This document shows, piece after piece, positions 2,266 to 58,009 of a DNA stretch of 64,000 nt (positions are counted from its first letter, which is position 1; each line of letters opens with the position of its first letter). The DNA is taken from positions 1 to 64,000 of IMG/VR virus record IMGVR_UViG_3300021599_001992; one strand, 5' to 3'. This DNA is from a virus. The notes beneath the pieces are model-generated. The model searched no databases. It had not been told where the DNA came from and saw only the letters and a list, made by a program, of their open reading frames with translations. Position numbers and translations under genes: made by a program.

Positions 2266-2269
2266 ATTA

Positions 2270-2410
2270 TTATTTATTTAACCAACCATCCATAATCCCA
2301 CTCTTAATATCGGGATAATAATTAAGGAGTATAAGTACTCCTGATATAATTACTATAGGTCTCCAATTTTTTCTAAGAAATGTTTCTAAATCTTTGATAA
2401 ATTCTTTCAT
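2270..2410 (-). CDS. Small single-pass membrane protein, 46 aa
   Basis: A short gene read on the minus strand from the ATG at 2410 to a TAA at 2270. The product begins MKEFIKDLETFLRKNWRP, has one hydrophobic segment (IVIISGVLILLNYY, residues ~19-32) and ends PDIKSGIMDGWLNK. Spacing supports it: its start is 3 nt after the upstream gene's stop, and its stop is 4 nt before the next ATG at 2265, so it fills the gap exactly. A basic amphipathic N-terminus before one membrane span is compatible with a lysis accessory protein (holin- or spanin-like) or a small inner-membrane protein, but I cannot assign a role. Confidence 0.68.
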   Translation of the reverse strand: MKEFIKDLETFLRKNWRPIVIISGVLILLNYYPDIKSGIMDGWLNK

Positions 2411-2413
2411 GGT

Positions 2414-2884
2414 TTATTTTTTACATTTTCTCCATCCACCACCTTTGGATTTGTAGTTTTTTGCTGCCCAACCGTTTGCATATGCAGAAGGGTACACATC
2501 AAATTTAGCTTTGGCCGCCGCTTTAGATGCTGCCCATTTTGCAGGATCCGTGGGACAATTTTTACTTTCATCAATTTCTTCCATTTCGTTTAGACTAAAT
2601 TGAGAAGTGTCAGCTTTTACTGATTTTTCTTCTCCATCTCCTTTGGTTTGGTTCATTAGGAAATCGAAAACTTGGTCTAATAAACTTTTGGCCTCTGCAA
2701 TATGATCTTGAGCCCAATCATGTTCTTTTAATATACCATCGATCATATCGTGATCTTCTTTCATCAAAAGATCACACTGTCTTTTCATTTGTTCAATATT
2801 TCCAAAAAACATGTAGTTTTCATGATTCTGTTCTTCAGTTATTTGTTTCAAGTGTTTTTTTATAATTTCGTCTAACTTTTTCAT
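2414..2884 (-). CDS. Candidate internal head protein with Trp/Tyr-rich C-terminal motif
   Basis: Function unknown; 156 aa. The N-terminus MKKLDEIIKKHLKQITEEQ is an amphipathic helix ending in I-T-E, which fits the T4 capsid-targeting rule (short helix, then cleavage after L/I-x-E by the prohead protease). The middle is acidic and helical. The C-terminus (~109-156) has CPTDPAKWAASKAAAKAKF, then DVYPSAYANGWAAKNYKSK and GGGWRKCKK, a motif I associate with short proteins of marine myophages. A late-promoter-like element lies 4 nt before the ATG. Confidence 0.55.
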   Translation of the reverse strand: MKKLDEIIKKHLKQITEEQNHENYMFFGNIEQMKRQCDLLMKEDHDMIDGILKEHDWAQDHIAEAKSLLDQVFDFLMNQTKGDGEEKSVKADTSQFSLNEMEEIDESKNCPTDPAKWAASKAAAKAKFDVYPSAYANGWAAKNYKSKGGGWRKCKK

Positions 2885-2888
2885 ATTT

Positions 2889-2896
2889 TATAAATA
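2889..2896 (-). promoter_or_regulatory. Late-promoter-like element
   Basis: TATTTATA on the minus strand, ending 4 nt before the ATG at 2884. Part of the repeated TATTTAT(T/A)A set described in the findings. Confidence 0.5.
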
Positions 2897-2905
2897 TTGA
2901 TTAAT

Positions 2906-4303: not shown

Positions 4304-4312
4304 CTTTTTATT

Positions 4313-4321
4313 TAATAAATA
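4313..4321 (-). promoter_or_regulatory. Late-promoter-like element
   Basis: TATTTATTA on the minus strand, ending 9 nt before the ATG at 4303. Confidence 0.5.
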
Positions 4322-4325
4322 TCAA

Positions 4326-5843: not shown

Positions 5844-6043
5844 AATCCTTCATGTCTTTTTTTAATTTCATTATTTATCATATTATAATATTCTTCTATA
5901 ATATCCAAATGTTTGGTCATTTCAACTATTAGTTGTTTTGTATTTTCAAATTCATCACTTAATATTTCAATTGCGGAAAATAAATCTTTGTTAGATTTAT
6001 TTTTTATATCACTGATAATTTCTAATAGTTTTTCCTTTTCCAT
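5840..6043 (-). CDS. Small helical protein, 67 aa
   Basis: Unrecognised. It is entirely charged and alpha-helical (MEKEKLLEIISDIKNKSNK through to NNEIKKRHEGL), with heptad-like spacing that suggests a coiled coil. Its stop overlaps the start of the OB-domain hub gene by 4 nt (ATGA), and the upstream large structural gene ends 1 nt before its ATG. Tight packing among hub genes suggests a small hub component or assembly chaperone, by analogy with the small hub genes of T4. That is inference from position only. Confidence 0.6.
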   Translation of the reverse strand: MEKEKLLEIISDIKNKSNKDLFSAIEILSDEFENTKQLIVEMTKHLDIIEEYYNMINNEIKKRHEGL

Positions 6044-6044
6044 A

Positions 6045-8036
6045 TTAAGTATTAAAAAGACCCGTACTGTTATTTGTAAATGGAGGAATAATTCCCGGTC
6101 CTAAAGGTGTCACAACAGTTATTGGTCTCGCATTAGTTGTTGACATTGGTGCCTTTGCTAAGTTTTTTACAAGTGAATCCATCATAGAGGATATTGCCGA
6201 AACAAAACCATTGTTTTCTCCATTTATTGGTCCGACATCAATACCATTTGCCTGTAATTTAGATATTGTATCCATCATAATTTTTGCACTGTTCAATGAT
6301 GGTAATTTTTCTGATAACGCCAATAATGGTTTTGGGATTTTGAGATCTAATCCACCGGCAGATTCAATTCCTTTGTCTATTGATTTTATTATGGTTTCAA
6401 TTAATTCCGCACAACTATCTATATCGTCTTCTTTTATTTCTTTTAAAAACGCAATTAATGCGGATATTACCATGTAATATTTTTTATACTTGGATTTTAT
6501 TATTTTTGCCGCAACATCTTTTATAAAATTTTTAATATCTTTTTTAATTCTTTTCCAAAAATCTCTCAAGAATGTCCAAAAAACCTCTTTGATTATACAA
6601 TAAAACATATTGGATAATTTTTTCATGAAAAGTTTAATATCCATGGTAGCCTGAACAGTACCATCTATCGTTACTGAAAACAATTTATATATTGCAACTA
6701 TAGGTAAGAAAATTTTTGGCGATAAAATACTTTGGATTATTGCTTTAGGTATGTTGATTAAAAATTTTATATTTAATGATAATTGAAAACTTGGTAAATC
6801 GAAAGATCCGTCTGATTGTTCAAATGCGTCTGCTGCTGCTTTGTTAAGAGTTGAATTAATTAAATCGTTTGCACTTTTTTTATTTTCTAAAAATATGAAA
6901 TCTTCTACAATTTGTGTGTTTACTGGAACTTCAAAATTATTACATGTTTGAAATACTAAAACTTTTCTCAGTCTTGCATCCTCATCATCAAGATCAATTC
7001 CTTCCACGTCGTCAAAATTGAAATAAAATTCTTTATCTTCATCGTTCTCATCAAACATGTCAGTTGGATTCTGATTTTTTAAATCATCTCGTTTTGTTTG
7101 ATTTCCACAGAAAGACATAATTTTCTTCAATAATCTTTCTAAATCATTAATTGCACTATCAAAACTTACATTTACAGTATCACCTCCTCCACTTGTAGAT
7201 ATTGGGTTAGTATTGACAGCATTTAATGTCATTATCATAGCATTTTTTAAAATGGTTTTTATATCCGGCATTTCAATACTACTATAATAATCATCCAAAA
7301 AATCCTCAACCTTAACATCAACCCCACAGTTACCAGGTGAACTACCTTGTGTTAATCCTGTGATATTAAAACGTTGATTAGAATCATCCCAATTTATGGT
7401 AAATAATGTTTTATTACTTGGTGTATCAAATTGATAGGGAGTACCTTGGAATGTGGTAAAAAGATTTCTGTTTACCTTTTCTTTACCCGATTCTTTTATT
7501 GGTTCGTATATAATTTTACCCAAATCACTATTTGGGGTAATTGTCAAAATATTTAAAAAATCTATTTCTCTTGGTTTGAGTGTAACTTGATCATATGTAC
7601 AACCACTAAATGTCTTATTATTACCACAAACTCCACCATTAGAAAACAATGCTGTTTTCACACAATCCATAACAATCTCTTTGGATTTATTTACAGTTGA
7701 ATCTGCGGCATCAATTGCGTGTCTTTTTAATCTTTGTGTCGATGCGAATTTATCGAAATCATCAGCCTTTCTACCACTTTCTAAAATCTTATTTAATGGA
7801 CCAAGTATTTCAGAAAATATATCCTTTTTATTTTGTTTTTTTCTATTTCTATTTTTTCTTGAGGATTTTAAACCTTCTAATTTTTGACTTAATTCTTTAC
7901 TTGATGGTAAATCTTTTGTAACGAGATCGGCAAGATCAGTGAATGAACGAGAATCAAGTGTATTTTCATTTGTTTTCGTTGCATCAATTGCCTCAATTTT
8001 GGCTAATAATTCATTTATTTTTTTCTTTAAACTCAT
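6045..8036 (-). CDS. Large virion structural protein, 663 aa
   Basis: Unrecognised but clearly a real late gene. Residues ~1-75 are a basic, helical and probably disordered N-terminus (RKNRNRKKQNKKD). The middle (~120-360) carries several cysteines (VCGNNKTFSGC, NCGVDV, CGNQTKRD). The C-terminal third (~430-620) has long hydrophobic helices (LINIPKAIIQSILSPKIFL, VFWTFLRDFWKRIKKDIKNF, YYMVISALIAFLKEI). The amphipathic C-terminal region could insert in a membrane or pack within the hub. It sits between the hub gene and gp55 with 1-nt junctions on both sides. A baseplate-hub or pilot-type role is possible. Confidence 0.6.
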   Translation of the reverse strand: MSLKKKINELLAKIEAIDATKTNENTLDSRSFTDLADLVTKDLPSSKELSQKLEGLKSSRKNRNRKKQNKKDIFSEILGPLNKILESGRKADDFDKFASTQRLKRHAIDAADSTVNKSKEIVMDCVKTALFSNGGVCGNNKTFSGCTYDQVTLKPREIDFLNILTITPNSDLGKIIYEPIKESGKEKVNRNLFTTFQGTPYQFDTPSNKTLFTINWDDSNQRFNITGLTQGSSPGNCGVDVKVEDFLDDYYSSIEMPDIKTILKNAMIMTLNAVNTNPISTSGGGDTVNVSFDSAINDLERLLKKIMSFCGNQTKRDDLKNQNPTDMFDENDEDKEFYFNFDDVEGIDLDDEDARLRKVLVFQTCNNFEVPVNTQIVEDFIFLENKKSANDLINSTLNKAAADAFEQSDGSFDLPSFQLSLNIKFLINIPKAIIQSILSPKIFLPIVAIYKLFSVTIDGTVQATMDIKLFMKKLSNMFYCIIKEVFWTFLRDFWKRIKKDIKNFIKDVAAKIIKSKYKKYYMVISALIAFLKEIKEDDIDSCAELIETIIKSIDKGIESAGGLDLKIPKPLLALSEKLPSLNSAKIMMDTISKLQANGIDVGPINGENNGFVSAISSMMDSLVKNLAKAPMSTTNARPITVVTPLGPGIIPPFTNNSTGLFNT

Positions 8037-8410
8037 TACAATTTATAATTCTCGTTTTTTTTATCTTCGTCATCAGTTAATAATTTATCAAGTAAATCTC
8101 TGTCCTCGTCTGATAAACTCAATTTACCCATAGGTGATCCTTTCGAACCCCCCTGAGTTTGTTTTAATAAAACACCTTGTAATTTTACAAGTGAAATTTT
8201 CTTTTCGGTACAGTCATTTAAAATTTTTTGTTGTTCCTTAATTACAGGACCAATAACACTCATATCCTCAGCGTCTTTCATGAAAGACATCATTTTACGC
8301 ATGATTGTAGATGCGGTATTTCTATTTTCAACAACATCATTATATATTTCTTGCATTAGTGCTAAAGCGGAATCAACATCTAATGTTATGTTTTTTCTTT
8401 CTCCTCTCAT
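8036..8410 (-). CDS. Small helical virion-block protein, 124 aa
   Basis: Unrecognised. It begins MRGERKNITLDVDSALALMQ and is predicted helical throughout, with a disordered Gln/Gly/Ser stretch near residue 90 and an acidic C-terminal tail (LSLSDEDRDLLDKLLTDDED). The stop overlaps the next gene's start by 1 nt (TAATG-type junction), so it is translated with the 663-aa structural protein. A TATTTATTT element lies a few nt before its ATG. The size and coupling suggest a chaperone or small structural partner of that protein. Confidence 0.6.
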   Translation of the reverse strand: MRGERKNITLDVDSALALMQEIYNDVVENRNTASTIMRKMMSFMKDAEDMSVIGPVIKEQQKILNDCTEKKISLVKLQGVLLKQTQGGSKGSPMGKLSLSDEDRDLLDKLLTDDEDKKNENYKL

Positions 8411-25668: not shown

Positions 25669-28566
25669 ATGAAAGAGGTTATTTCTCAGGAAATTATCGA
25701 AAATTTCCTAAACGGATCCGATCCGGAAGAATTCATAGTTGGTGTAGAATACGATTATCCAACAAATACAATTTATAAAATTATACAAGATCCTGAAAAA
25801 GGAAAAAAAGTAATATCAGATAAATTCATTCCATTTTTATGGGTTGGTGATTTGTCTGGATTAAATTTTTATAATAATTCCAAGGCAACTCAAAAAAGGG
25901 CCATGATGAAACATGGTATTCTAATTGAAAAATTGGAAACATATGGAAACGAAAGGTTAGAAAATGGTTTAAAATATCTCGTAAAAAGCACAAAAAGTTA
26001 TACCAATTTAACAAGTTTTTTTAGAGAGGGTGGTGTTGATCCGTGGAATGAAAATTTTAGACAATATTTTCAAGTATTGTCTCCTGTAGAACAATATCTA
26101 ATAGATAAAAAGAAAAGATTATTCAAGGGTATTGAGAATTATTCAGATGTTTACAGATTCGTATTTGACATTGAGACTACAGGTCTTGAACCAGAAAAAA
26201 ATAATATTATTCTTATTGGGGTTAAAGATAATCGTGGATTAAATGAAACAATCCCCGCATTTGGTCAAGACGGAGAAAAAAAATGTATTGAAAGATTCTT
26301 TCAATTAATAAGAGAAAGAAAACCCACAATTATAGGTGGATATAACTCGGCATTTTTCGATTGGCCCTTTATATTAAAACGTGCAGAAATATTGGGTGTT
26401 GATGTACAGGGTTTAACAGCAATCTTTACTCCTAAAGGTATTACGGAAAAAGAAGGTATGTTGAAATTAGCAAATGAAGTTGAACCGTATACACAACATG
26501 TTATTTGGGGATTTAATATCATTGATATTGCGCACGCAGTTAGAAGAGCACAGGCGATTAATAGTGAAATTAAATCGTGGGGTTTGAAATATATCACAAA
26601 ATATTTGGAGAAAGAAAAATCAAATCGTGTGTATGTTGACGGTGCATATATTTCAAAAATATATCTTGATAATGAGAGTTATTATGTGAATCCAAAAACA
26701 GGTAACTATAAAAAAATAGGTGAACCAGGCACAGAGAATTTATTAGAAAAATATCCCGGCAAATTTGAAATATGGCCAGGTAGAAAAATTGTTGAACAAT
26801 ATCTTGATGATGACTTGTATGAAACTATGATTGTTGACGATTCTTTTTCACAATCAACTTTCTTACTTTCAAAACTTGTACCGACAACGTATGAAAGAAT
26901 CGCAACAATGGGTACCGCAACGTTATGGAAAATAATCATGTTGGCTTGGTCCTATGAAAACAATTTGGCAATTCCAACTAAAGATGAGAAACGTGCAATC
27001 ACAGGTGGATTATCAAGGTTATTAAATGTTGGTTATTCAAAGAATATTGTCAAGTTTGACTACGCGTCACTTTACCCATCTATTCAACTTGTTTATGATG
27101 TATTTCCTGAATGTGATGTGATGGGTGTTCAGAAATCAATGCTAAAATATTTCCGTAACATTCGTATCAAATACAAAAGACTTGCGGGTGAACTTGCTAA
27201 AACAAATCCTGTTGAGGCTGAGATGTACGACCGTAAACAATTACCAATTAAGATTTTCATCAATGCATACTTTGGTTCACTTTCCGCACCACAAGTATTT
27301 CCGTGGGGTGATATGAATATGGGTGAAACAATTACATGTACCGGTAGACAATGTCTCCGTATGATGATTATGTTTTTCATGAAGAAAGGATACAAACCAC
27401 TTGTAATGGATACGGATGGTGTTAACTTTGAAACTCCTGATGACATTCAAAATACAATTTACATAGGTAAAGGTAATAATGAATTAGTGGAAGAAGGTAA
27501 GGAATATAAGGGTATTGAAGCAGATACCGCAGAATTCAATGATTTATTCATGAGAAACGAAATGGGTTTAGATATTGACTATATGGCACCCGCATGTATT
27601 AATGTTTCTCGTAAAAATTATATAATAAAACTAATAAAGAAAGGTAAGGAAAAAATTAAATTAACAGGTAACACTATAAAATCTAAAAAACTACAACAAT
27701 ATATTGTGGAATTTTTAGATGAGGGTTTGAAACATCTATTAAATGGTGATGGTGCCTCATTTGTTGAATTATATTATGAATATGTAACTAAGATATTCAA
27801 TAAGGAAATACCATTATCTAAGATTGCAAATAAGGCAAGAGTAAAACAATCTGTTGATGAATATAGAAAACACATTAAAAAAGTAACTAAGGCAGGTTCT
27901 TTAATGTCACGTCAGGCACATATGGAACTTGTTATGTTAAATGATTATCCTGCAGGTTTAGGTGAAACAATTTATTATGTAAATAATGGTCTTAAAAAAT
28001 CATCGGGGGACGTTCAGAAAATTTCAAAACCAACAAAAAAACAACAGGAAGAATTTTTACAGAAACATGGTCATCCCATGCCGTCAGATTACATTGAAAT
28101 AAATTGTTATATGATTCCTGAAAAGGAAATTCAAAATAATCCTGAGATGACAGGGGAATATAATGTTGCGAGATATCTCTCCACATTTAACAAAAGAATA
28201 GAACCTTTATTGTGTGTTTTCAAACCTGAGATTAGAGAAGATATATTAATTGAAGATCCTAAAGACAGACAATATTTTACAAAATCACAATGTGAACTTG
28301 TAAACGGTTATCCTTTGAAAGAAGGTGGACAAGATAACTTTGATGAGGTTATGACTTTATCTGATAGTGAGGTACTTTTTTGGAACAGAGTGAATAGAGA
28401 CCCTTTCTTTATGTATGTTGAAAATAGTTTGGAGTTAGTTGATCAATATTGGGTGGATCATAATAGGAAAGTAGTTTCACTACAGGCAAATAGTACTAAG
28501 AGTAATGAGGATGAAATAATTGAAACTAACGGAAATGACTTCGCGTATCACGCGGTGGAAAGTTAG
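25669..28566 (+). CDS. 43: Family-B DNA polymerase (gp43)
   Basis: Replicative polymerase with 3'-5' proofreading. Exo I is FDIETTGLEP (D167, E169); Exo II is IGGYNSAFFDWPF (~222-234). Polymerase motif A is KFDYASLYPSIQL (~462-474). Motif B is KIFINAYFGSL (~528-538), with NAYFG in place of the usual NSxYG. Motif C is VMDTDGVNF (~577-585), with DTDG in place of DTDS. All three catalytic Asp/Lys positions are kept. At 965 aa it is slightly longer than T4 gp43. It sits among late tail genes rather than next to the other replication genes at 53-60 kb, and ends with a 4-nt tail-to-tail overlap with the neck gene. Confidence 0.96.
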   Translation: MKEVISQEIIENFLNGSDPEEFIVGVEYDYPTNTIYKIIQDPEKGKKVISDKFIPFLWVGDLSGLNFYNNSKATQKRAMMKHGILIEKLETYGNERLENGLKYLVKSTKSYTNLTSFFREGGVDPWNENFRQYFQVLSPVEQYLIDKKKRLFKGIENYSDVYRFVFDIETTGLEPEKNNIILIGVKDNRGLNETIPAFGQDGEKKCIERFFQLIRERKPTIIGGYNSAFFDWPFILKRAEILGVDVQGLTAIFTPKGITEKEGMLKLANEVEPYTQHVIWGFNIIDIAHAVRRAQAINSEIKSWGLKYITKYLEKEKSNRVYVDGAYISKIYLDNESYYVNPKTGNYKKIGEPGTENLLEKYPGKFEIWPGRKIVEQYLDDDLYETMIVDDSFSQSTFLLSKLVPTTYERIATMGTATLWKIIMLAWSYENNLAIPTKDEKRAITGGLSRLLNVGYSKNIVKFDYASLYPSIQLVYDVFPECDVMGVQKSMLKYFRNIRIKYKRLAGELAKTNPVEAEMYDRKQLPIKIFINAYFGSLSAPQVFPWGDMNMGETITCTGRQCLRMMIMFFMKKGYKPLVMDTDGVNFETPDDIQNTIYIGKGNNELVEEGKEYKGIEADTAEFNDLFMRNEMGLDIDYMAPACINVSRKNYIIKLIKKGKEKIKLTGNTIKSKKLQQYIVEFLDEGLKHLLNGDGASFVELYYEYVTKIFNKEIPLSKIANKARVKQSVDEYRKHIKKVTKAGSLMSRQAHMELVMLNDYPAGLGETIYYVNNGLKKSSGDVQKISKPTKKQQEEFLQKHGHPMPSDYIEINCYMIPEKEIQNNPEMTGEYNVARYLSTFNKRIEPLLCVFKPEIREDILIEDPKDRQYFTKSQCELVNGYPLKEGGQDNFDEVMTLSDSEVLFWNRVNRDPFFMYVENSLELVDQYWVDHNRKVVSLQANSTKSNEDEIIETNGNDFAYHAVES

Positions 28567-29681
28567 ATCACATTATATGGAGAAGGCATCGCTCTATACT
28601 TGAGAGCCTTGTTAAGATTTTCTGCTTCGTTTCCTTTTCTTTCAAGTATTTTTTCTGGACGAAGTCTTTCAAGTCTTGCCATTAATTCTTCAACTAATTT
28701 AGATCTTTCATCCTTAGCTTCGGTTAATAATGTACTGTAATCAAGTTTTACCGTACTATCAGGTACTTGTAAATCACCAGAGAATTTACCCCATATTCTT
28801 GCCAATCCTTCTTTAGAATATGCTATCAAATATTTTCTAACCCAATTTTGTGCTGGTTTATTTAAATCGTCCCAAGTTAATGGTTGGGTATCAACATCGG
28901 AAGGTAACTTTATAACATCTTTATTTTGATCTAAACAAGTGTCTCTATCAAAAGTATCATAGTACCAATACCAAACTCTATAATTGTTATTTTTAATTGA
29001 GCCGAAATCAAATCTACCACCGGGAACATTCATTAAATGCACTATTTTAGTTCCATCAGGTCCTGCGGTAATTCTATATGTTAAATCACCACCAATCATT
29101 CTGTTTTTTATGTTTCTGTCCTGCATCCTAAGTAACAAGTCAAATGCGGGAAGAAGAAAATACGAACCCGCAGATCCTGTTTGTGCAAAACCACCTACAC
29201 CACCAAATCCGACACCTCCTAATCCACCAAATCCACCAAGAAATGGATCGACAATCGAGTCTGTTAATTCTGCTCTATTATACCATAATAATTCATTAAG
29301 TTCTCTTCCTGCTGGTATCGTATATGTCTGTACCCCCCTTTCTAAAGTTATATAATCCTTTTTTAATTCCCACGGTCCATTCGCTTGTAATCCGACTATT
29401 TTAGAATAAGAATACGTGTATTGTGTTTCATAATCCAAACTTCTTGTTGTGAACGCTCTCGTAAGTGATTGGGTATCAACATCTAATCCCGCCAATGCCG
29501 ACCATTGAGACTCAATAAGCCAATCACTAACATATTGTTCATATTCGGATAATGATAACTCTAAAAAAGTATCCATTTGTTCCTCAGTTAATTCAATACC
29601 CCTTACTGGCATACCTAATAAATGGAAAACCTGTGTAAAAAGTTTATCTTTTTGTTCGGGTGTTATTATTGTTGTTGACAT
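28563..29681 (-). CDS. Neck/head-completion-like structural protein, 372 aa
   Basis: A conserved type of structural protein in T4-like marine phages, probably at the head-tail joint. It begins with helical ITPEQKDKLFTQVFHLLGMP and TEEQMDTFLELSLSEYEQYV, then RGVQTYTIPAGRELNELLWY. A Gly/Phe-rich insert (FLGGFGGLGGVGFGGVGGF, ~146-164) follows, then FDLLLRMQDRNIKNRMIGGD. The C-terminus has KYLIAYSKEGLARIWGKFSG, DSTVKLDYSTLLTEAKDER and RLERLRPEKIL. The start is the ATG at 29681, with a late-promoter-like element 17 nt upstream. It is separated from the other neck genes by a nuclease-like gene and a helicase. Confidence 0.6.
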   Translation of the reverse strand: MSTTIITPEQKDKLFTQVFHLLGMPVRGIELTEEQMDTFLELSLSEYEQYVSDWLIESQWSALAGLDVDTQSLTRAFTTRSLDYETQYTYSYSKIVGLQANGPWELKKDYITLERGVQTYTIPAGRELNELLWYNRAELTDSIVDPFLGGFGGLGGVGFGGVGGFAQTGSAGSYFLLPAFDLLLRMQDRNIKNRMIGGDLTYRITAGPDGTKIVHLMNVPGGRFDFGSIKNNNYRVWYWYYDTFDRDTCLDQNKDVIKLPSDVDTQPLTWDDLNKPAQNWVRKYLIAYSKEGLARIWGKFSGDLQVPDSTVKLDYSTLLTEAKDERSKLVEELMARLERLRPEKILERKGNEAENLNKALKYRAMPSPYNVI

Positions 29682-29722: not shown

Positions 29723-30775
29723 ATGGATATTCTAACATCAAACATAAGAAAGTACCGATATGACTATTTTAAGGGTCTTTTATCTGGTGATTTTAAAAAA
29801 TTATATAAAGAAAGGTGTAATAAAGTTTTCGAAAAAAAAGGTAAGGAATTAGGAATTTGGGGATTTTGGAAAAAAAATAAAATGTGGGGTATTCTAAATT
29901 ATCAAAAACAAATACCTGTTTCTTGGTGTTGGAGAAATACTCCAAATACACATCCTTATTGTTTTCACGATTTTTATTATTTGTTTTATGATAGTACCGG
30001 TATAGAATTAGATTTTAATGACAAGAATAAGTGGGGAAAAAACTTAGATATTCTTTTTAGTTTTATCGAAAAAAATTTTCAACTTTATTTTACAACCGAT
30101 ATTGATACAAAATATTTTTATCATTTTTGGTTTAGATGTAATCAATCGTGGACTTCAGGTCAAATTACAATAATTGCCCTGATGTATAAAATCCGTAAAA
30201 TATTTGATGAATTCAAAATAATAGATATGGATTTTGCCTTAGAAAGAGGAGATCCAAATGATTTTAAAGGAATTGATGTTATTTTAACAATAGAAACTAA
30301 AGACATATATAAGAATAGAGAAAAAATTAAAATACAAGTAAAAGGTGGGAGAGTAATAAGTTATAATGAAGAGGGGTATTTGGTATCAGGTTCAGCTAAT
30401 GATTTAAAAGCGGATGTTAATTATTGGTGCTATATTGACATAAAAGATAAAAAGACAGAAATTGTTTTATTTCAAAATATAAATCGATATATAGAACGTA
30501 TTGGTTATAACATTTTATTTAAAAAAGAAATAATTCACCCAATAAAAATTGAAGAAAGTATTATGGTACCTGAAAAATTAGATGAGATTGCGAAATATTG
30601 TTATGATAAAAAAATATTAATTGAAATTGAACATTTACCACAAGGTGTAAATGAAGTTATATTACAAAAAGATCCCGAAAAAATCATTAATATAAAAATT
30701 GCCGATTTTAAAGATAAAAATCTTATAATTCTATTAACGAATAAATTCGATGAATTAAAGAAGTTCTTTAATTAA
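29723..30775 (+). CDS. Possible PD-(D/E)XK nuclease-like protein, 350 aa
   Basis: No family recognised. Residues ~170-210 (MDFALERGDPNDFKGIDVIL, then KIKIQVKGGRV) carry a D185 on one strand and Q205-x-K207 on the next, the D...(E/Q)xK layout of restriction-endonuclease-like folds. The N-terminal ~150 residues are rich in Trp, Tyr and Phe (IPVSWCWRNTPNTHPYCFHD). The C-terminal part (~240-350) is a mixed domain. It is the only gene of its strand between two minus-strand genes and has its own host-type promoter, like an early accessory gene. The 3' end overlaps the helicase gene by 21 nt. Activity is not proven. Confidence 0.6.
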   Translation: MDILTSNIRKYRYDYFKGLLSGDFKKLYKERCNKVFEKKGKELGIWGFWKKNKMWGILNYQKQIPVSWCWRNTPNTHPYCFHDFYYLFYDSTGIELDFNDKNKWGKNLDILFSFIEKNFQLYFTTDIDTKYFYHFWFRCNQSWTSGQITIIALMYKIRKIFDEFKIIDMDFALERGDPNDFKGIDVILTIETKDIYKNREKIKIQVKGGRVISYNEEGYLVSGSANDLKADVNYWCYIDIKDKKTEIVLFQNINRYIERIGYNILFKKEIIHPIKIEESIMVPEKLDEIAKYCYDKKILIEIEHLPQGVNEVILQKDPEKIINIKIADFKDKNLIILLTNKFDELKKFFN

Positions 30776-32497
30776 ATCCTTACTAAAAGTTTCGGAATAT
30801 TCACCATCACCCATAACTTGATCAATTATATTCTTTTTCTTTTGCAGAATATTATATATTATTTTTTCAATAGTATTTTCAAAAACAGGATAATATACAA
30901 GTACACTATTTTTTTGTCCGTATCTATATGCACGATCTTCCGCTTGACTATGATGTGCAGGAACAAATGACAAGTCATTCATAATCACAGTTTCGGCTGC
31001 AGTTAATGTTATCCCAACACCACCCGCAACAATATTTGATATGAATATTTTAATTTTATCTTCATTTTGAAACCTGTCTACAGATTCTTGTCTTCTTTCT
31101 TTAGTCATACGACCATCAAGGACCACAGATTGTTTTTTATATTTCTCGTGTAACATATCTAAAGTCATCGTAAAATTTGTAAACACAATTACTTTTTTAC
31201 CCTGTTCTAAACATCTATCAATTATTTCACATGTATAAGGAATTTTTTCATATGAAATTAATTGTCTTACTTTCATTAAACGATTTAATGTTACACTAAT
31301 AGTATCTGTTTCCTTATTTTCTTTACTGATTCTTGTAAATTCTTCGAGTTCTTCATCATACATTTTAGAATTTAGTTCAACAAATATTGGAGTTATAATT
31401 TTTTCAGGTAAATCAAGAATATCTGTTTTCATTCTACGAAGTACAATATTTTTAGTTCTTTCTCTTAACTCATCCAAATTACTTGCACCGCTTGTGTTCC
31501 AAACTTTTCTATTACCAACTCTAAATTGAAATCCCTTACAATATCTTTTAACATATGTTTGCCAATTAAGTGTTAAAGGTGAATCTACAATTTTAAGGAG
31601 ATTAAAATAATTAATCGGTCTCGATGTCATTGGAGTACCTGTAAGTAACCATACTTTTGGTATTTGATCTAAAACATCATTTAGTAATCTTGTTCTATTT
31701 GCCGTAGTATTTGAAATATAGTGTGCCTCATCTACAATTGCCAAATCAAAACCTTCATTAACCAATAATTTATAATCATCACTATCTTCACTTTTATCTG
31801 TTGTGTGATAATTCTTTAATATATCATAATTTATTATATAAAAATCAAAAGTGGATCCCCATTTACGACCCTCTACAATTAATGTTCTTCTATCGGTATA
31901 ATTTTCAATTTCTCTTTTCCAATTTATTTTTAATGATGCGGGACAGACAATTAATATTTTTTTTGCTCCACTTTCTAATGCACCGATAACAGCTGAAGTA
32001 GTTTTACCTAAACCCATATCATCCGCAAGAATAAATTTATCATTTGCTAATAATTTTTCAACTGCAGTTTTTTGATGATCCATGGGTGGTCTACTTCCAT
32101 ATTTAGAATAATCAATTACTCTATTTAATTTTTTTTCGGGTTGTACTACCGCCGCCTTCGGTAACCAAAATGCATTATTTTGTTCAGAATCTATAATCTT
32201 ACCCCATATGTGATACGCTTTTTCACTTTCACATAATAATTTTTCACACCATATTTTTGTTGGGGGTACAGGTAGTAATTTGTCTTCTTGAATTTTTTCT
32301 CCAAAAGTTGAGACTATCTCAATATATTTTCTTGCAATTTTAGGAACACTATCTTTATACTTTAAAACATATTCAGCTTGTGGACGAGTAAGTTTAAAAT
32401 TTTTTTGATCAATAAATTTTCTTTTCCAATCTAATAGTTGATTATTGGAACCATCGTAATTTGATAATAATTCTCTTGCCTCTATTTCAGGTATCAT
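30755..32497 (-). CDS. SNF2-family helicase/ATPase
   Basis: DNA-dependent ATPase of superfamily 2 that remodels or anneals DNA, comparable to phage SNF2 and SMARCAL1-like proteins. The frame reaches a longer start at 32575, but those 26 residues are hydrophobic and run into the divergent promoter, so the ATG at 32497 (MIPEIEARELLSNYDG) is chosen (580 aa). Motif I is ADDMGLGKT (~158-166); motif II is VDEAH (~255-259). Motif III is LTGTPMTSRP. The C-terminal lobe has VIFVTNFTM-like strand KVIVFTNFTMTLDML, NIVAGGVGITL, and motif VI QAEDRAYRYGQ. It converges on the nuclease-like gene. A role in replication restart similar to T4 UvsW is possible. Confidence 0.92.
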   Translation of the reverse strand: MIPEIEARELLSNYDGSNNQLLDWKRKFIDQKNFKLTRPQAEYVLKYKDSVPKIARKYIEIVSTFGEKIQEDKLLPVPPTKIWCEKLLCESEKAYHIWGKIIDSEQNNAFWLPKAAVVQPEKKLNRVIDYSKYGSRPPMDHQKTAVEKLLANDKFILADDMGLGKTTSAVIGALESGAKKILIVCPASLKINWKREIENYTDRRTLIVEGRKWGSTFDFYIINYDILKNYHTTDKSEDSDDYKLLVNEGFDLAIVDEAHYISNTTANRTRLLNDVLDQIPKVWLLTGTPMTSRPINYFNLLKIVDSPLTLNWQTYVKRYCKGFQFRVGNRKVWNTSGASNLDELRERTKNIVLRRMKTDILDLPEKIITPIFVELNSKMYDEELEEFTRISKENKETDTISVTLNRLMKVRQLISYEKIPYTCEIIDRCLEQGKKVIVFTNFTMTLDMLHEKYKKQSVVLDGRMTKERRQESVDRFQNEDKIKIFISNIVAGGVGITLTAAETVIMNDLSFVPAHHSQAEDRAYRYGQKNSVLVYYPVFENTIEKIIYNILQKKKNIIDQVMGDGEYSETFSKDLIKELL

Positions 32498-52164: not shown

Positions 52165-52815
52165 ATGAGCTTAGAAAAAAAATTACACGAAGAATTACAG
52201 CGTTATAAGGAAATTAACAACTACACTAAGAAATTAGTAGTAGAACAAGACGCACCTCCTCCCCCTCCCCCTGTTGGTGGTGAACCAACAGACGCAGCGG
52301 CGGATACCGGAGGATTAGATACACCCCCACCACCACCTCCATCTGGTGGAATGGATACCCCTCCATCATCTTTAGGTGAAACCACACCTTCAGATACCGA
52401 AGAAATAGATATTACTGATTTAGTTAATATGACTAAAAGTATTAAAAAGGATATCGAAGATAATAAACAAGAACACGGAACTGTTTTAAGTCAGATGGAT
52501 GCGGTGTTTTCTAAATTAGATGATTTAGAAGCTAAATTGGGTCAAATGGATTCAGTTATAGCTAAAATAGACGAATTGGGATCTAAGGTTCAAGATATGA
52601 AACCTCATACACCACAAGAAAAACTTGAATTGAGATCATTGGATTCTTATCCATTTAACCAAAAACCTCAAGAATTTTTTGCACAAAAGCAAGGCGAAAT
52701 GCAAATGACCGGTAAAAATGAATACGTATTAACAAAAGATGATGTTGAAAACTATTCAAAAACCATAACACAAACATTTAATCCCGAATTAGAAAAAGAT
52801 GAATTTAAATTCTAA
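52165..52815 (+). CDS. Pro-rich coiled-coil protein; candidate core/internal head protein, 216 aa
   Basis: Unrecognised. It begins MSLEKKLHEELQRYKEINNY then TKKLVVEQDAPPPPPP. The helix followed by V-V-E is again like a capsid-targeting/protease-cleavage start. Residues ~30-75 are Pro/Gly-rich with two hexaproline-type runs. Residues ~95-150 are a coiled coil with strict heptads (SQMDAVFSKLDDLEAKLGQM, DSVIAKIDELGSKVQDMK). The C-terminal ~65 residues include LDSYPFNQKPQEFFAQK and NEYVLTKDDVENYSKTI. Its 3' end overlaps the ferritin-like gene by 17 nt. Confidence 0.58.
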   Translation: MSLEKKLHEELQRYKEINNYTKKLVVEQDAPPPPPPVGGEPTDAAADTGGLDTPPPPPPSGGMDTPPSSLGETTPSDTEEIDITDLVNMTKSIKKDIEDNKQEHGTVLSQMDAVFSKLDDLEAKLGQMDSVIAKIDELGSKVQDMKPHTPQEKLELRSLDSYPFNQKPQEFFAQKQGEMQMTGKNEYVLTKDDVENYSKTITQTFNPELEKDEFKF

Positions 52816-53170
52816 CGTAAATTTACTATTAGGGTTACACGCTCAATTAAAAGTATTTCATTGGCAAACTAAAGGTTTTGCGAGACATGAAGCATTTGCA
52901 GATATTAGATCAACTATTGAAGATTTAATGGATGAATTTATTGAACAAGCTATGGGTCAATACGGAAGATTTGTTTTGGATGATGAAACAAAAGTTATAA
53001 ACTTAATTAACTTATCCGAGGCTAAACCATCTCAAATGGCTGAAACCATATGTGGTGCTTTAGTTCAATTAACAGATCAAATAGATCCTAAGGATACCAA
53101 TCTTTTAAATTTAAGAGATGAGTTATTAGGTGCAGTTCAAAAATTAAAATATCTATTAACCTTAGAGTAA
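52799..53170 (+). CDS. Ferritin/Dps-like DUF5856 protein, 123 aa
   Basis: A four-helix protein. The N-terminus NLLLGLHAQLKVFHWQTKGF and ARHEAFADIRSTIEDLMDEF match the ferritin-like pattern of phage DUF5856, in which 'LHxQxKxxHWQT' parallels the iron-ligand helix of Dps proteins. MGQYGRFVLDDETKVINLIN follows. The family name is from memory. Dps-like proteins bind DNA or iron; whether this one keeps a metal site is unknown. It ends at a strong terminator and overlaps the Pro-rich gene by 17 nt, so expression is late. Confidence 0.7.
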   Translation: MNLNSNVNLLLGLHAQLKVFHWQTKGFARHEAFADIRSTIEDLMDEFIEQAMGQYGRFVLDDETKVINLINLSEAKPSQMAETICGALVQLTDQIDPKDTNLLNLRDELLGAVQKLKYLLTLE

Positions 53171-53266: not shown

Positions 53267-54112
53267 ATGTCAACATTTGATGCAGTACTTGCACAGTACG
53301 AGAAAAACAAACAATCCGCAAGCGGTAACGGAAACAAAGTTTCGCAAGAAGACAGAATGAAAAAGTATTTCACTACTGTTCTTCCTAAAGGTTCTAAAGG
53401 TGAAGAAAGACGAATTCGTATTCTTCCTACTACAGATGGTTCCTCACCATTTAAAGAGGTTTATTTCCATGAAATTCAAGTGGACGGTAAATGGGTAAAA
53501 TTATATGACCCAAAACAAGAAGGAAAACGTTCACCATTGAACGAGGTTAAAGAAAGTCTTGAAATGACAGGAGTTCAGTCAGATAAAGAACTCGCTCGTC
53601 AATATCGTTCTCGTAAATTTTACATTGTAAAAGTGATTGATCGTGATCACGAACAAGATGGAGTTAAATTTTGGAGATTTAAACATAATGCAAAACAAGA
53701 CGGTGTTTTGGATAAAATTTTTCCAATCTTTCAAAAGAAAGGGGATATTACGGATCCAACAAAAGGTCGTGATTTAACATTATTTTTAACTCTTACAAAA
53801 TCAGGAACAGGTAAAGAGTATACTACAATCAATTCAATTATTCCTGAAGATTCTTCACCATTACATGAAGACAAATCAACTTCAGATTCATGGTTAAATG
53901 ATGAATTGGTTTGGTCTGATGTATATTCTAAAAAACCCGAAGAGTATCTTGATATGGTAGCAAAAGGTGAAGTTCCTCGTTGGGATTCAGATAGTAAAAA
54001 ATGGGTCTCTAATTCACAATCAGAGGAGACTATGGGAAACACAACAGTAAAGACGACAACAATTGAAGATCCACAAGAAGATTCAGAAGTTGATGACGAT
54101 TTACCGTTCTAA
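53267..54112 (+). CDS. 32: Single-stranded DNA-binding protein gp32
   Basis: Covers single-stranded DNA in replication and recombination and loads UvsX-type machinery. The 281-aa protein has the gp32 layout: an N-terminal basic arm (MSTFDAVLAQYEKNKQSA), a core with RRIRILPTTDGSSPFKEVYF, KFYIVKVIDRDHEQDGVKFW and DPTKGRDLTLFLTLTKSGTG, then an acidic C-terminus. Typical gp32 zinc Cys/His ligands are not obvious in the core. The last residues are VDDDLPF, the tip sequence of bacterial SSB rather than of T4 gp32. The 45-nt leader is all A/T with no stable fold. Arginines are largely CGT codons, as in the capsid gene. Confidence 0.88.
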   Translation: MSTFDAVLAQYEKNKQSASGNGNKVSQEDRMKKYFTTVLPKGSKGEERRIRILPTTDGSSPFKEVYFHEIQVDGKWVKLYDPKQEGKRSPLNEVKESLEMTGVQSDKELARQYRSRKFYIVKVIDRDHEQDGVKFWRFKHNAKQDGVLDKIFPIFQKKGDITDPTKGRDLTLFLTLTKSGTGKEYTTINSIIPEDSSPLHEDKSTSDSWLNDELVWSDVYSKKPEEYLDMVAKGEVPRWDSDSKKWVSNSQSEETMGNTTVKTTTIEDPQEDSEVDDDLPF

Positions 54113-54173: not shown

Positions 54174-55148
54174 ATGGCAATTAAGAAAAACGATTTTAGT
54201 TCAATAAAGAAAAAATTTTCAAAGGAGGCGGAGTATAAACCTGATCGTTTCTTTGATTTAGGTGATGCGTTTTTGGACGCAACAGGTATACCGGGTCCCG
54301 CTGTTGGACATTTAAATATGTTTTTGGGGCATAGTGATACAGGTAAAACTACTGCACTTGTAAAGGCGGCAGTAGACGCACAAAAAAAAGGTATTTTACC
54401 CGTGTTCATTATTACTGAACAAAAATGGAATTGGGACCACGCAGTTTTAATGGGTTTCAATAAGGAAGACGATTTCTATCTATTCAATAGTGATTTTGAA
54501 TATATTGAACAGATTACAGATTTTATTAATGAAGTATTGGATGCACAAGAAAAAGGTGAAATCCCACACGACATTCTTTTCTTATGGGATTCAGTTGGTT
54601 CTGTTCCTTGTAAGATGACATATGACGGCAAAGGTGGTAAACAACACAACGCATCTGTATTAGCTGATAAAATAGGTATGGGTCTAAACCAAAGAATCTC
54701 TGGTTCAAGACGTGTCGATAAAAAACATACAAACACATTGATCATTGTTAACCAACCTTGGGTAGAATTACCTGATAATCCTTTTGGACAACCAAAGATT
54801 AAGGCAAAAGGTGGAGAGGCAATTTGGTTAAACTCAACTCTTGTATTTTTATTCGGTAATCAAAAGGGTGCAGGAACAACAAAAATCTCAATCACGAAAG
54901 ATAAGAGAAAAGTCAAGATTGCAACAAGAACAAAAATTTCAATAATGAAAAACCACGTAAATGGTTTGGGTTATGAAGATGGAAGAATTCTTGTTACAGC
55001 ACATGACTTTATGAAAGGTAGAGATGATGTTGAAGAAAAGAAAAGCATTGAACTTTACAAATCAGAACACGGAGATTATATTAGTAAAATGTTAGGCGTT
55101 AATGTTACAGACGCAGAAGATATTGAAGTTGTAACTGAGGATGAATAA
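54174..55148 (+). CDS. uvsX: UvsX, RecA-family recombinase
   Basis: Promotes strand exchange for recombination-dependent replication. Walker A is GHSDTGKTT (~52-60); the catalytic Glu follows in FIITEQKWNW; Walker B is ILFLWDSVGSV (~140-150). TLIIVNQPWVELPDNPFGQP and KAKGGEAIWLNSTLVFLFGN mark loop L2 and the following strand. At 324 aa it lacks part of the T4 UvsX C-terminus (391 aa). The segment KNHVNGLGYEDGRILVTAHD is typical of UvsX proteins. It follows gp32 directly, the same functional pair as in T4. Confidence 0.93.
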   Translation: MAIKKNDFSSIKKKFSKEAEYKPDRFFDLGDAFLDATGIPGPAVGHLNMFLGHSDTGKTTALVKAAVDAQKKGILPVFIITEQKWNWDHAVLMGFNKEDDFYLFNSDFEYIEQITDFINEVLDAQEKGEIPHDILFLWDSVGSVPCKMTYDGKGGKQHNASVLADKIGMGLNQRISGSRRVDKKHTNTLIIVNQPWVELPDNPFGQPKIKAKGGEAIWLNSTLVFLFGNQKGAGTTKISITKDKRKVKIATRTKISIMKNHVNGLGYEDGRILVTAHDFMKGRDDVEEKKSIELYKSEHGDYISKMLGVNVTDAEDIEVVTEDE

Positions 55149-55164
55149 TTTATAATAAACATTA

Positions 55165-56184
55165 ATGTCCGTTTTATTAGTTGATGGAGATAATTTACTT
55201 ACGATTGGTTTCTATGGTCTCAAAAACCATTTTTACAAGGGAAAACATATTGGAGCAATATATCATTTTATTAATACTCTTCGTAGAGCGTTTGAGACAT
55301 ACCATTTAGATAAAATAGTTGTTTTTTGGGATGGAGAAGAAGGTTCTCAAACAAGGAAACAAATCTATCATCTATATAAAGAAAATAGAAGATCTCGTTT
55401 AAGAACTGAAGAAGAAGTTAATTCATATCAGTATCAAAGACAAAGAGTAAAACAGTACTTAGAAGAACTATTTGTTAGACAAGGTGAGTTTCAATATTGT
55501 GAAACGGACGATTGTATTGCTTATTATGTACAAAATTCATTATCAGAATACAAAATAATATATTCTGCGGACGGAGACCTTACTCAATTGGTTTCTGAAT
55601 CAACACAAATATTCAATCCAAGTCATCAAAAATTATATAAACATCATGATAAAATTATGTATGATCATGAAGAAATATGTATTGAGAATGTGAAGATTGT
55701 TAAGATGTTGTGTGGTGACCCATCTGATAATATTTCAGGAATAAAAAACATGGGTATCAAGAGATTAATATCATTGTTTCCTGAAATAAAAGATAAACCA
55801 ATTAGTTTAAATGATATAAAAGAAAAAACTAATATATTATTTGAACAGGATAAAAATAATTGGTTGATTAAAAATTTACTTACGGGTGTAACTAAACACG
55901 GAGTATTTGGAGATGAATTCTTTTATGTAAACAATAAGATTGTAAGTTTAGATGAACCATTTTTAACTGATGATGCTAAAGAAAATATACATGCATTGAT
56001 TAATGACAACTTAGATCAAGAAGGGAGGTCATATAAAAACGCAATGAAAATGATGAGTGAAGACGGGTTATTTCAAATACTACCCAAATCAGATGACGCA
56101 TTTATAAATTTTTTTAATCCATTTTTAAGATTAACAAGAAAAGAAAAAAATAAAAAACCAATTAAAATCAAAAACAATGACTAA
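55165..56184 (+). CDS. rnh: RNase H / 5'-3' exonuclease (T4 Rnh-type FEN)
   Basis: Removes RNA primers and 5' flaps. The PIN-like FEN nuclease core is clear: LLVDGDNLLTIGFYGLKNHF, VFWDGEEGSQTRKQIYHLYK (arch/helix with conserved Arg/Lys), ETDDCIAYYV and IIYSADGDLTQLV (acidic metal ligands), then GDPSDNISGIKNMGIKRLIS, the H3TH motif that clamps DNA. At 339 aa it is slightly longer than T4 Rnh (about 305 aa). It overlaps the next gene by 8 nt, consistent with one replication operon running from uvsX to the reductase. Confidence 0.92.
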   Translation: MSVLLVDGDNLLTIGFYGLKNHFYKGKHIGAIYHFINTLRRAFETYHLDKIVVFWDGEEGSQTRKQIYHLYKENRRSRLRTEEEVNSYQYQRQRVKQYLEELFVRQGEFQYCETDDCIAYYVQNSLSEYKIIYSADGDLTQLVSESTQIFNPSHQKLYKHHDKIMYDHEEICIENVKIVKMLCGDPSDNISGIKNMGIKRLISLFPEIKDKPISLNDIKEKTNILFEQDKNNWLIKNLLTGVTKHGVFGDEFFYVNNKIVSLDEPFLTDDAKENIHALINDNLDQEGRSYKNAMKMMSEDGLFQILPKSDDAFINFFNPFLRLTRKEKNKKPIKIKNND

Positions 56185-56623
56185 TCAAGAAAACGTAACA
56201 AAATTCGAATTTTTACTGACACTCGAAAACAACATTGTGTGTCAAAGATTCTTTAATGTTAAAGACCACGAACCTCGTTCAAGACGATCTATGGATCTTC
56301 ACTATTATGTAAAAAATATTTGTGAAGAAATTTCGGAAGATTTGAAAATAAAAAGTTCCAATTACCTATGTGAAAATCAAAATTTTTTCCTAAATTCTGA
56401 AGTTGTGGAAGAATCAAAAGCAACTGAAAAAGAACATTTTTTATTGGAAATTAAGCTTGGTGACGACGTATTTATTCAAAGAATATTCCCCGCGTATTAT
56501 TACCACCCAAAGGTTAGGTACACGGTAGATATTCGTCCAAAACTGAAGAGAGTACTGTCAGATTTGACTGACATTTTATCATCTGAGGAATTGGAGACAA
56601 GTTATTTGCAATACGAACTGTAA
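56177..56623 (+). CDS. Conserved phage protein with internal duplication, 148 aa
   Basis: Function unknown. Two halves align: residues ~8-66 (FEFLLTLENNIVCQRFFN...PRSRRSMDLHYYVKNICEEI) and ~86-145 (HFLLEIKLGDDVFIQRIFP...PKVRYTVDIRPKLKRVLSDL). Shared positions are FLL, QR, F, P-(R/K)-x-R-x-(S/T)-(M/V)-D-(L/I), and an end with 'Y-L'. Gene order places it between the Rnh and gp41 genes, the same place such two-domain proteins occupy in other marine T4-like phages, so a replication accessory role is likely. It overlaps rnh by 8 nt, and 18 nt separate it from gp41. Confidence 0.7.
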   Translation: MTNQENVTKFEFLLTLENNIVCQRFFNVKDHEPRSRRSMDLHYYVKNICEEISEDLKIKSSNYLCENQNFFLNSEVVEESKATEKEHFLLEIKLGDDVFIQRIFPAYYYHPKVRYTVDIRPKLKRVLSDLTDILSSEELETSYLQYEL

Positions 56624-56641
56624 AATATATATAAATTTATT

Positions 56642-58009
56642 ATGGAAGAAAAGAATTTTGGTTACTTAGGATTATCATTTCAACAATCGTTAATTAAATC
56701 TATCGTAGAAGATAAGAAATACGGCGAAACTATTATAGACGTATTAGATAGTAAGTATTTTGATAATGTATCCTTAAGATTCATAATGGAAAATATTAAG
56801 GAATTGTATAGAACATATAATTTTATTCCTGATTACAGTACCATTACACAAAAAATTATCGCAGAAGGTGGTAATAATAGAATTCATACTGATACATTAG
56901 ATGTAATTAGAAAAGATGAAAAAGAGGTTCCATACGTAAAAGACACTGCTTTAAATTTTTGTAAACAACAAAATCTGAAAAGGGAACTTAAGATTGTTGA
57001 AAATATCATTCAGAATGGTGAGTTTGAATCTTATAGTAAGATAGAAGAAATCATAAAAAAGGCGTTACAAGTTGGAATTACAAACGAAGAGGCAGTTGAT
57101 GTTTTCCATAATATTGATGAGGCTCTTGAAAAAGACAATAGACATCCCATTCCTACAGGAATTGTAGGTGTTGACAATTTATTGAATGGTGGATTAGGAA
57201 GAGGTGAATTGGGTGTTGTTTTGGCTCCAACAGGCACAGGTAAAACAACCTTGTTAACAAAATTTGCCAATACTGCTTTTAATCACGATTTCAATGTTGT
57301 ACAAATATTTTTTGAAGACAACCCAGGTAATATAAAAAGAAAACACTACACCATATGGTCAGGTGTTGCTCCAGATTTACAACCTGAATTCAAAGAGGAT
57401 GTAAAATCAAAAGTAGACGATGCACAAACAAGATCTAAAGGGTCAATCAAATTATTAAAATTACCATCTGATAATATTACTATTTCAGAAATAAAAAGTA
57501 GATTGAGAAAATTGATCAGTGATGGTTTTAAAGTTGATTTATTGATCATAGACTATGTGGATTGTATATCACCTGAAAGAACCGCATTAGGTGAAGAATG
57601 GAAGGGAGAAGGGTCTATCATGAGAAGTTTAGAGTCTATGACTGGTGAGTTCGATATTGCTATTTGGACAGCAACACAAGGTAATAGAGAATCAATATCA
57701 TCTGAAGTTGTAAATAGTGACCAGATGGGAGGATCAATTAAAAAGGCACAAATTGCACACGTAATACTTTCTATAGCTAAAACATTAGAACAAAAAGAAA
57801 ATAATTTGGCAACTTTAACACTTCTTAAATCTCGTATAGGTAGAGATGGTGTAATATTCCAAAATTGTAAATTCAACAATGAACTATTGGTAATTGATAC
57901 CGATTCACAAAATACTCTTCTCGGATTTGAGCAAGAGCAAGTTCAGAAAAGATCAAATAGAGCGGCAGAAGTCTATAGAAACAGACAACAAAGAGTTAAT
58001 AATAATTAA
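56642..58009 (+). CDS. 41: Replicative DNA helicase gp41 (DnaB-like)
   Basis: Hexameric 5'-3' helicase at the fork. Residues ~1-150 are the helical N-terminal domain (DSKYFDNVSLRFIMENIKEL). The RecA-like C-terminal domain has Walker A APTGTGKTT (~195-203), QIFFEDNPGNIKRKH (catalytic Glu), the Walker B LLIIDYVDCIS, TATQGNR and NLATLTLLKSRIGRDG, all DnaB-family motifs. At 455 aa it is close to T4 gp41. No primase (gp61) or loader (gp59) gene is visible in the window. Confidence 0.94.
   Translation: MEEKNFGYLGLSFQQSLIKSIVEDKKYGETIIDVLDSKYFDNVSLRFIMENIKELYRTYNFIPDYSTITQKIIAEGGNNRIHTDTLDVIRKDEKEVPYVKDTALNFCKQQNLKRELKIVENIIQNGEFESYSKIEEIIKKALQVGITNEEAVDVFHNIDEALEKDNRHPIPTGIVGVDNLLNGGLGRGELGVVLAPTGTGKTTLLTKFANTAFNHDFNVVQIFFEDNPGNIKRKHYTIWSGVAPDLQPEFKEDVKSKVDDAQTRSKGSIKLLKLPSDNITISEIKSRLRKLISDGFKVDLLIIDYVDCISPERTALGEEWKGEGSIMRSLESMTGEFDIAIWTATQGNRESISSEVVNSDQMGGSIKKAQIAHVILSIAKTLEQKENNLATLTLLKSRIGRDGVIFQNCKFNNELLVIDTDSQNTLLGFEQEQVQKRSNRAAEVYRNRQQRVNNN

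Follow-up and report, generated by a model that had tools for sequence, protein, structure and literature searches.

In bacterial genome maintenance, proteins are recruited chiefly by a signal at the C-terminal tip of SSB, and the locus studied here raises the question of whether a phage has placed a working copy of this signal on a single-stranded-DNA-binding protein of the gp32 type and, if so, which proteins would answer to it. The locus lies in the window, a stretch of 64,000 nucleotides from an IMG/VR virus record with a total of 86,065 bases. Phage SSBs bearing such tips (HK620), gp32 and the SSB C-terminal tip (SSB-Ct) are each known, and it is their combination in one protein and its clade-wide fixation that appear to be new: among the matches listed in the full-text literature, whose scope leaves out most subscription journals, there was no description of a gp32-type protein with an SSB-type tip.

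A gp32-family protein with an SSB-type C-terminal tip

A first-pass annotation had placed a gp32 homologue at 53267-54112; the ORF has these coordinates, on the plus strand, and the profile and structure searches agree with the identification. The ORF encodes a gp32-family single-stranded-DNA-binding protein of 281 aa that matches PF08804 (E 1.5e-12, 48.4 bits against a curated cut-off of 26.8) and phrog_1192, 'single strand DNA binding protein' (E 1.3e-08); gp32 is its sole Pfam match at E 0.01, and PF00436, the bacterial SSB family, is not matched. The PF08804-matching core covers residues 47-209 (53405-53893, plus strand), and AlphaFold predicts strands at E45-52, E63-72, E75-81, E114-125, E133-139, E168-178 and E184-196. 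Searched with this predicted fold, Foldseek returns six hits at E <= 0.001, all of them T4 or RB69 gp32 (2a1k, 1gpc, 8gme, 2atq; OB-fold core), with E-values from 3e-09 to 5e-07 and TM scores of 0.36-0.57; at a mean pLDDT of 65.6, confidence in the model is modest.

A variable acidic linker (residues 250-274, 54014-54088, plus strand), predicted to be disordered from a pLDDT that stays below 50 over residues 250-281, leads to the tip VDDDLPF (residues 275-281, 54089-54109, plus strand). The last residues of the ORF read QEDSEVDDDLPF and the stop codon TAA (54110-54112) follows directly after the terminal Phe, which bears out the SSB-type end that had been claimed. As in the bacterial SSB-Ct (DDDIPF in E. 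coli, DLPF in Flavobacteriaceae), an acidic-hydrophobic-Pro-Phe string stands at the extreme C-terminus behind a flexible linker, and the terminal acidic-x-Pro-Phe on a disordered tail by which an SSB-Ct is recognized is found in the window gp32; the bacterial tip, however, sits on the PF00436 fold and that of the window on a gp32-type protein. With T4 and RB69 gp32 the window protein shares the family by profile, the fold and an acidic C-terminal tail. T4 gp32 was rightly said to lack the tip: it ends in DTDLDDLLNDL, and its final DLDDLLNDL stands against DDDLPF in the window protein.

Downstream of gp32, on the same strand, come a RecA/UvsX-like recombinase gene that starts 61 bp further on (54174-55148; PF00154 at E 1.4e-05, below the Pfam cut-off, phrog_97 UvsX-like at E 1.8e-11, RecA chains in the structure search), whose product is a candidate phage-encoded client of the tip, a 5'-3' exonuclease gene with an N-terminal resolvase-like domain (55165-56184; PF02739, E 7.7e-27; phrog_107), an ORF of 148 aa and a gene for a DnaB-like replicative helicase (56642-58009; PF03796, E 6.4e-14; phrog_19, E 3.4e-59). 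PolB is encoded at 25669-28566 and an SNF2-type (SNF2/UvsW-like) helicase at 30755-32497. A search of the window's record and of 17 long clade records, all of which may be fragments, turned up no second, SSB-family (PF00436) gene. The 148-aa ORF (56177-56623), between exonuclease and helicase, has no family match and is a candidate loader or mediator; relatives of it are present in the tip-bearing records G435 and G440 and in the contig of a Prochlorococcus single-cell genome (SAG), and absent from G444. Directly upstream of gp32 lies a DUF5856/phrog_858 gene (52799-53170; starvation-inducible regulator-like).

Conservation of the tip in three groups of relatives

An SSB-type tip should be conserved across relatives, as the first-pass annotation had reasoned, and this is the case among close and more distant ones alike. 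A scan of viral contigs confirmed at least 597 relatives among the 600 candidates listed, and the best 80 were kept as the group of the window (group A); one of these (L001) is identical to the window protein, and all 80 end in PF (79 LPF, 1 IPF). The scan of bacterial and archaeal genomes yielded only two relatives, which were used as seeds for two further groups: a Bacteroidales MAG contig (30% identity with the window protein) gave the 73 loci of group B, and a contig in the Prochlorococcus SAG (49% identity) the 80 loci of group C. Where measured, members of these distant groups share about 30-60% identity with the window protein. PF08804 is matched by three group C members as well; L091, the representative of group B, has no hit to it at E 0.1 and matches the profile of the window group at 5.8e-37. 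One of the 73 group B loci is cut by a contig end. Of the 72 frames that were read through to a stop codon, 70 have LPF as their end; the remaining two terminate prematurely, and the same DNA, read further on in another frame, ends in DYDDLPF and DYKDLPF, a pattern suggestive of a frame error. LPF is thus the end of 72/72 complete group B genes, in two of them only via the frame jump. In group C two loci are cut off, and the complete genes have PF ends without exception (78/78; 71 LPF, 7 MPF).

Among the distinct tails (56 in group A, 54 in B and 69 in C), Pro at position -2 and Phe at -1 are conserved at 100% in all three groups, and most linker positions are far less conserved than the tip. 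Leu is written with five to six different codons in A and B and with four in C, Pro with three to four and Phe with both of its own, and this synonymous variation at conserved residues indicates that selection acts on the protein. The last 30 residues carry a mean net charge of -7.4 in the 56 group A tails. Within the 80 group A loci, which hold 595 ORFs of at least 100 aa, PF ends comprise the 80 tips and 0/515 of the other ORFs, and in three long relatives a PF end is seen in 1 of 214, 1 of 307 and 2 of 428 ORFs of at least 80 aa, in each case including gp32. Judged from these sequences, the tip is a real and selected motif that defines a clade.

The tail holds a second conserved string, D-P-Q, 12-14 residues before the end (residues 268-270 in the window protein, 54068-54076, plus strand). 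Its conservation reaches 98% for D, 95% for P and 100% for Q in the 56 group A tails, and 96%, 90% and 90%, respectively, in the 69 distinct tails of group C; in the 54 of group B it is not conserved.

Distribution of the tip in the gp32 family

C-terminal ends were read in 18 other gp32 proteins: a first set consisted of T4, S-PM2, Mosig, HTVC008M, the marine virus AG-345-P14 and Mel-JY01; a second of Campylobacter F372, Salmonella S117, Vibrio BX-1, Stenotrophomonas Moby and P-HM1, together with Aeromonas CC2 and ZHF, Erwinia Bue1, Acinetobacter Octan and the uncultured phage LR756502; and a third of LysYB2 and LR756508. None of them ends in PF (0/18, or 0/16 without the group D members Mel-JY01 and LR756508), and their ends are differing acidic-hydrophobic strings, such as DDLLNDL, LSYFAQLA, DDWLNNL and EFEQFLKQ. 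An ORF of LysYB1 (28443-29642) considered as gp32 proved to be unrelated, and the LysYB2 gene was used in its place. In a collection of 50,697 named-phage records the window protein matches 37, with ends read in five, the group B seed matches none and S-PM2 gp32 matches 2,420; a named phage with the tip may exist among the gp32 ends outside those read. The tip-bearing phages form a large group, here known from environmental sequence only.

The neighbouring group D comprises 80 loci (IMG/VR, L092-L171) found with the protein of the Microcystis phage Mel-JY01. Its members share the Pfam family with the window protein and, in Mel-JY01, the position of gp32 beside an annotated RecA. They differ from it in that 0/77 complete genes end in PF, nearly all closing on a form of (A)FDDLFN, and in that Shine-Dalgarno-like sites in the pooled loci stand well above shuffled sequence. 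(A)FDDLFN is a conserved C-terminal motif of group D gp32, for which we know of no partner. The gp32 groups examined have end motifs of their own, and these may report which partners each group uses.

In an unrooted tree of 46 gp32 sequences, each shortened by its final 30 residues, the 25 rows with the tip occupy one side of a single branch (support 100/100, recovered in each of the 200 bootstrap trees); the tree has four long end branches. Since it is unrooted, gain and loss of the tip look alike on it, and because the tip amounts to one change, the correlation between tip and host type has a sample of n = 1.

The window group does not retain the set of zinc ligands seen in T4 gp32 (H64/C77/C87/C90) and, like the window protein itself, has no Cys at all; the ligand columns (53468-53545, residues 68-93) hold H, D, a gap and N, the gap column being readable as S from the register with the group C member L248 (CPLC against SPLN). 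The Cys residues are kept in 9/9 group B rows, and in group C by only L248 of the nine rows examined (complete). They are also absent from the pelagiphage, P-HM1, Moby and group D rows, so that the H-C-C-C set is not a criterion of gp32 membership.

Likely hosts and the tips of their SSBs

Bacteroidetes are reported to lack Shine-Dalgarno sites (PMC6847099; PMC9723584), and we counted such sites for mechanically called ORFs (first ATG, at least 100 or at least 120 aa) in comparison with shuffled sequence. No excess is seen in the tip-bearing groups (4/524 against 13.2 shuffled in A, 16/299 against 15.1 in B and 18/330 against 15.8 in C); counts over whole records are for the most part consistent with this: tip-bearing ones give 1/136 (G435; 4.1 shuffled), 4/213 (G440; 6.4) and 11/270 (G444; 9.8), and the window's own record 4/56 (2.5). 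The pooled group D loci reach 140/363 against 41.5, and the group D records 52/174 (Mel-JY01; 18.2) and 13/145 (G452; 6.7, a small excess). The missing excess in the tip-bearing groups points to Bacteroidota hosts, and Bacteroidota are the likely hosts of these phages. In the phylum of the Bacteroidales MAG, seven 20-kb stretches yield 7/98 sites against 6.1, and the short SSB loci an excess of 22/85 against 7.8, which means that the phylum, as drawn here, is not uniformly free of Shine-Dalgarno sites. A scan of 395 genomes of this phylum gave as its only match the MAG that seeded group B.

The assignment to Bacteroidota is contradicted by the clade member in the Prochlorococcus SAG, whose SSB ends in NDIPF; the phage relative may have come to this genome either by infection or by co-sorting. 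On its contig (L090, QCKH01000004.1), nine of the ten window genes between 52165 and 62852 have matches in the same order, at 32-57% identity, and the same SAG (L090, L511) holds a PolB relative on a contig other than L090. Ribosomal protein S21, considered as a marker of Bacteroidota phages, proved unspecific, being present in the Microcystis phage Mel-JY01 as well; S21 genes (records G435-G440 and W01) occur in 6/18 tip-bearing records, of groups A and C only and not in the window's own record.

The SSBs of the MAG's phylum were read in two sets. In the first, 30 of 31 loci were resolved and all 30 end in LPF (L328 stayed unresolved), a count that leans towards tips, since the script preferred a PF-ending frame where several covered the SSB place. 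The second set, 30 places of the same phylum, gave 13 LPF, 2 IPF, 1 VPF, 1 LPY and 13 tipless ends, the last of which may be paralogues because the reading was limited to the top match of each genome (two for G059). Over both sets, 43 of the 46 PF-ending SSB tips are LPF; a second SSB of the Bacteroidales MAG ends in DEIPF. The short SSB loci with the Shine-Dalgarno excess are the 30 best-scoring ones of the phylum, and several of them look like Chlorobia or Ignavibacteria relatives, judging by their neighbours. The phage tip would thus have the form usual in the SSBs of its likely hosts, DLPF. Firmicutes SSBs also end in LPF, and hence Leu rather than Ile in the tip is not diagnostic. In the literature, DLPF is the SSB end of the Flavobacteriaceae Flavobacterium psychrophilum and Psychroflexus torquis, and elsewhere the end is DIPF (four cases besides E. 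coli) or DVPF (Desulfotalea) (PMC3991886). Thirty cyanobacterial SSB loci proved too messy to be used as a contrast: the best matches are often tipless, with one IPF (that of the SAG itself), no LPF and five loci not cleanly resolved.

Recruitment of host SSB partners as the proposed role

We consider it probable, with ample room for doubt, that the window protein is a gp32-type SSB with a working SSB-Ct-type tip and that its most likely clients are host SSB-interacting proteins, phage proteins being possible too. It would serve as the phage's own gp32-type ssDNA-binding protein, with a disordered acidic tail ending in a functional SSB-Ct-type motif, [D/E]-[L/M]-P-F-COOH. By coating phage ssDNA it would display many tips, and proteins endowed with an SSB-tip pocket would gather on the phage DNA. 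Such a pocket has a hydrophobic hole, edged by a basic rim, into which the terminal Phe fits. Phage proteins may bind the same tip, and host SSB-interacting proteins would be the likeliest clients because the tip appears to copy the DLPF of the likely hosts and because the phage records searched hold no SSB-family gene. From these observations we infer the binding to a pocket, the identity of the clients and a benefit to the phage.

The isolated acidic tip peptide suffices to bind E. coli RecO, PriA, PriC and chi in ITC experiments, independently of linker length (PMC7145534), so that an ssDNA-coating protein showing the tip can be expected to meet the SSB partners of its host. By analogy, the phage tip is likely to capture such partners; those named in the first-pass annotation are E. 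coli proteins, and the likely host belongs to the Bacteroidota. In T4, Dda binds gp32 at residues ~248-269, and the extreme C-terminus has been tentatively assigned functions in ssDNA binding, although the peptide 271-301 also bound weakly (PMC11551737). With the extreme end of T4 gp32 tentatively tied to ssDNA binding, recruitment through that end would be a departure within the gp32 family.

A broader version of this idea we put forward only tentatively. The tip-bearing phages, a deep clade with contigs of up to 349 kb that probably for the most part infects Bacteroidota, bear the hub motif of host SSB where gp32 otherwise has its own end, and their gp32 filaments might form a complete substitute hub that pulls SSB-dependent enzymes of repair and replication off the host chromosome and onto phage DNA, a convergent takeover of this bacterial hub by an unrelated fold. 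Strict conservation of the copy on a gp32-type protein points to a portable short motif, one that also marks a whole phage clade. The single terminal Phe offers a simple test of whether phages borrow the SSB network of their host or build their own around its motif.

Phage-encoded clients and other explanations

It seems unlikely, if still deserving of serious attention, that recruitment by the tip is confined to phage-encoded proteins, chiefly the RecA/UvsX-like protein but also the helicase, the polymerase or the SNF2/UvsW-like protein, its likeness to SSB being due to convergence of the pockets. The precedent is phage HK620, in which binding of the phage's own RecA-like Sak4 to SSB-covered ssDNA depends on the six C-terminal residues of the SSB, NDYPPF (PMC5928155). 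There, too, an SSB-type tip on a phage-encoded protein is required to recruit a RecA-like protein; the HK620 protein, however, is described as an SSB homologue and probably a tetramer, and its tip has a role shown by experiment (PMC5928155). Together with the RecA/UvsX-like gene 61 bp downstream of gp32, this precedent makes it conceivable that the client is phage-encoded, and the gp32, RecA-like and exonuclease genes adjoin in the window, in G435, G440 and G444 and in the SAG contig L090. Tipless phages also have gp32 beside an annotated RecA (Mel-JY01, LysYB2), though, which means that adjacency alone does not explain the motif, and since the bare tip peptide suffices for E. coli host clients (PMC7145534), binding of host proteins is still to be expected.

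The replication gene set bears on the same alternative. In tblastn comparisons (cut-off 1e-4) of G435, G440 and G444 with two group D records, one of them covered up to its last 1.6 kb, gp32, exonuclease and helicase match in all five records, whereas the RecA-like protein, PolB and the SNF2-type helicase match in 3/3 tip-bearing and 0/2 group D records. The annotated RecA beside gp32 in Mel-JY01 implies that the group D recombinase is strongly diverged or replaced rather than absent in function. The difference between the tip and the group D end thus goes with a recombinase and a DNA polymerase that are strongly diverged or different, an association that phage-encoded clients would explain just as well. 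It tracks at once a probable difference in hosts and a partly different replication set, two factors that sequence data cannot separate.

Recruitment of host SSB partners, our preferred reading, has less to contend with from the remaining explanations. It is improbable that the tip works mainly within the molecule, docking as a DNA mimic in the ssDNA groove of gp32 itself and tuning DNA binding, with client recruitment secondary. Such a role has been proposed for the acidic far end of T4 gp32, residues 273-301 (PMC11551737), and, by the title of a reference cited in PMC5686142, for the tail of T7 gp2.5, and the window tail is likewise acidic and predicted to be disordered; a DNA mimic needs charge and not an exact Pro-Phe, though, and the Pro at -2 and the Phe at -1 are kept at 100% in all three groups while most other tail positions vary more; other gp32 clades keep an acidic tail without Pro-Phe. 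Still more improbable is that the tip disguises phage ssDNA filaments as host SSB filaments from defence systems able to sense a foreign SSB: phage SSB triggers Retron-Eco8, E. coli SSB does not, and phage T1, whose SSB clusters with that of the host, escapes it (PMC12887533), but the rest of the window protein, its gp32 core, would still be foreign. A four-residue motif in one sequence alone could arise as a random string resembling SSB-Ct, but strict conservation with synonymous codons, 0/515 PF ends among the other ORFs and confinement to one tree branch leave chance a negligible prospect, and it was excluded.

The notion that the phage needs host DnaG for want of a primase was dropped after scans of tip-bearing and other phage records with DnaG and Toprim_2 models. 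The DnaG zinc-ribbon has no match in the 18 tip-bearing records and likewise none in 16 of 18 other phage records, T4 included; Toprim_2 gives weak matches in 4/18 tip-bearing records and in one group D record, and none in T4 with the same model, so that neither model is informative about the lack of a primase. Outside the replication genes, L089 contains at 1248-8048 (record position 76248-83048) a 2266-aa ORF made up largely of G-T/S-S-G repeats, the end of which we take to resemble a tail-fibre chaperone domain; the ORFs beside it carry long T-P repeats.
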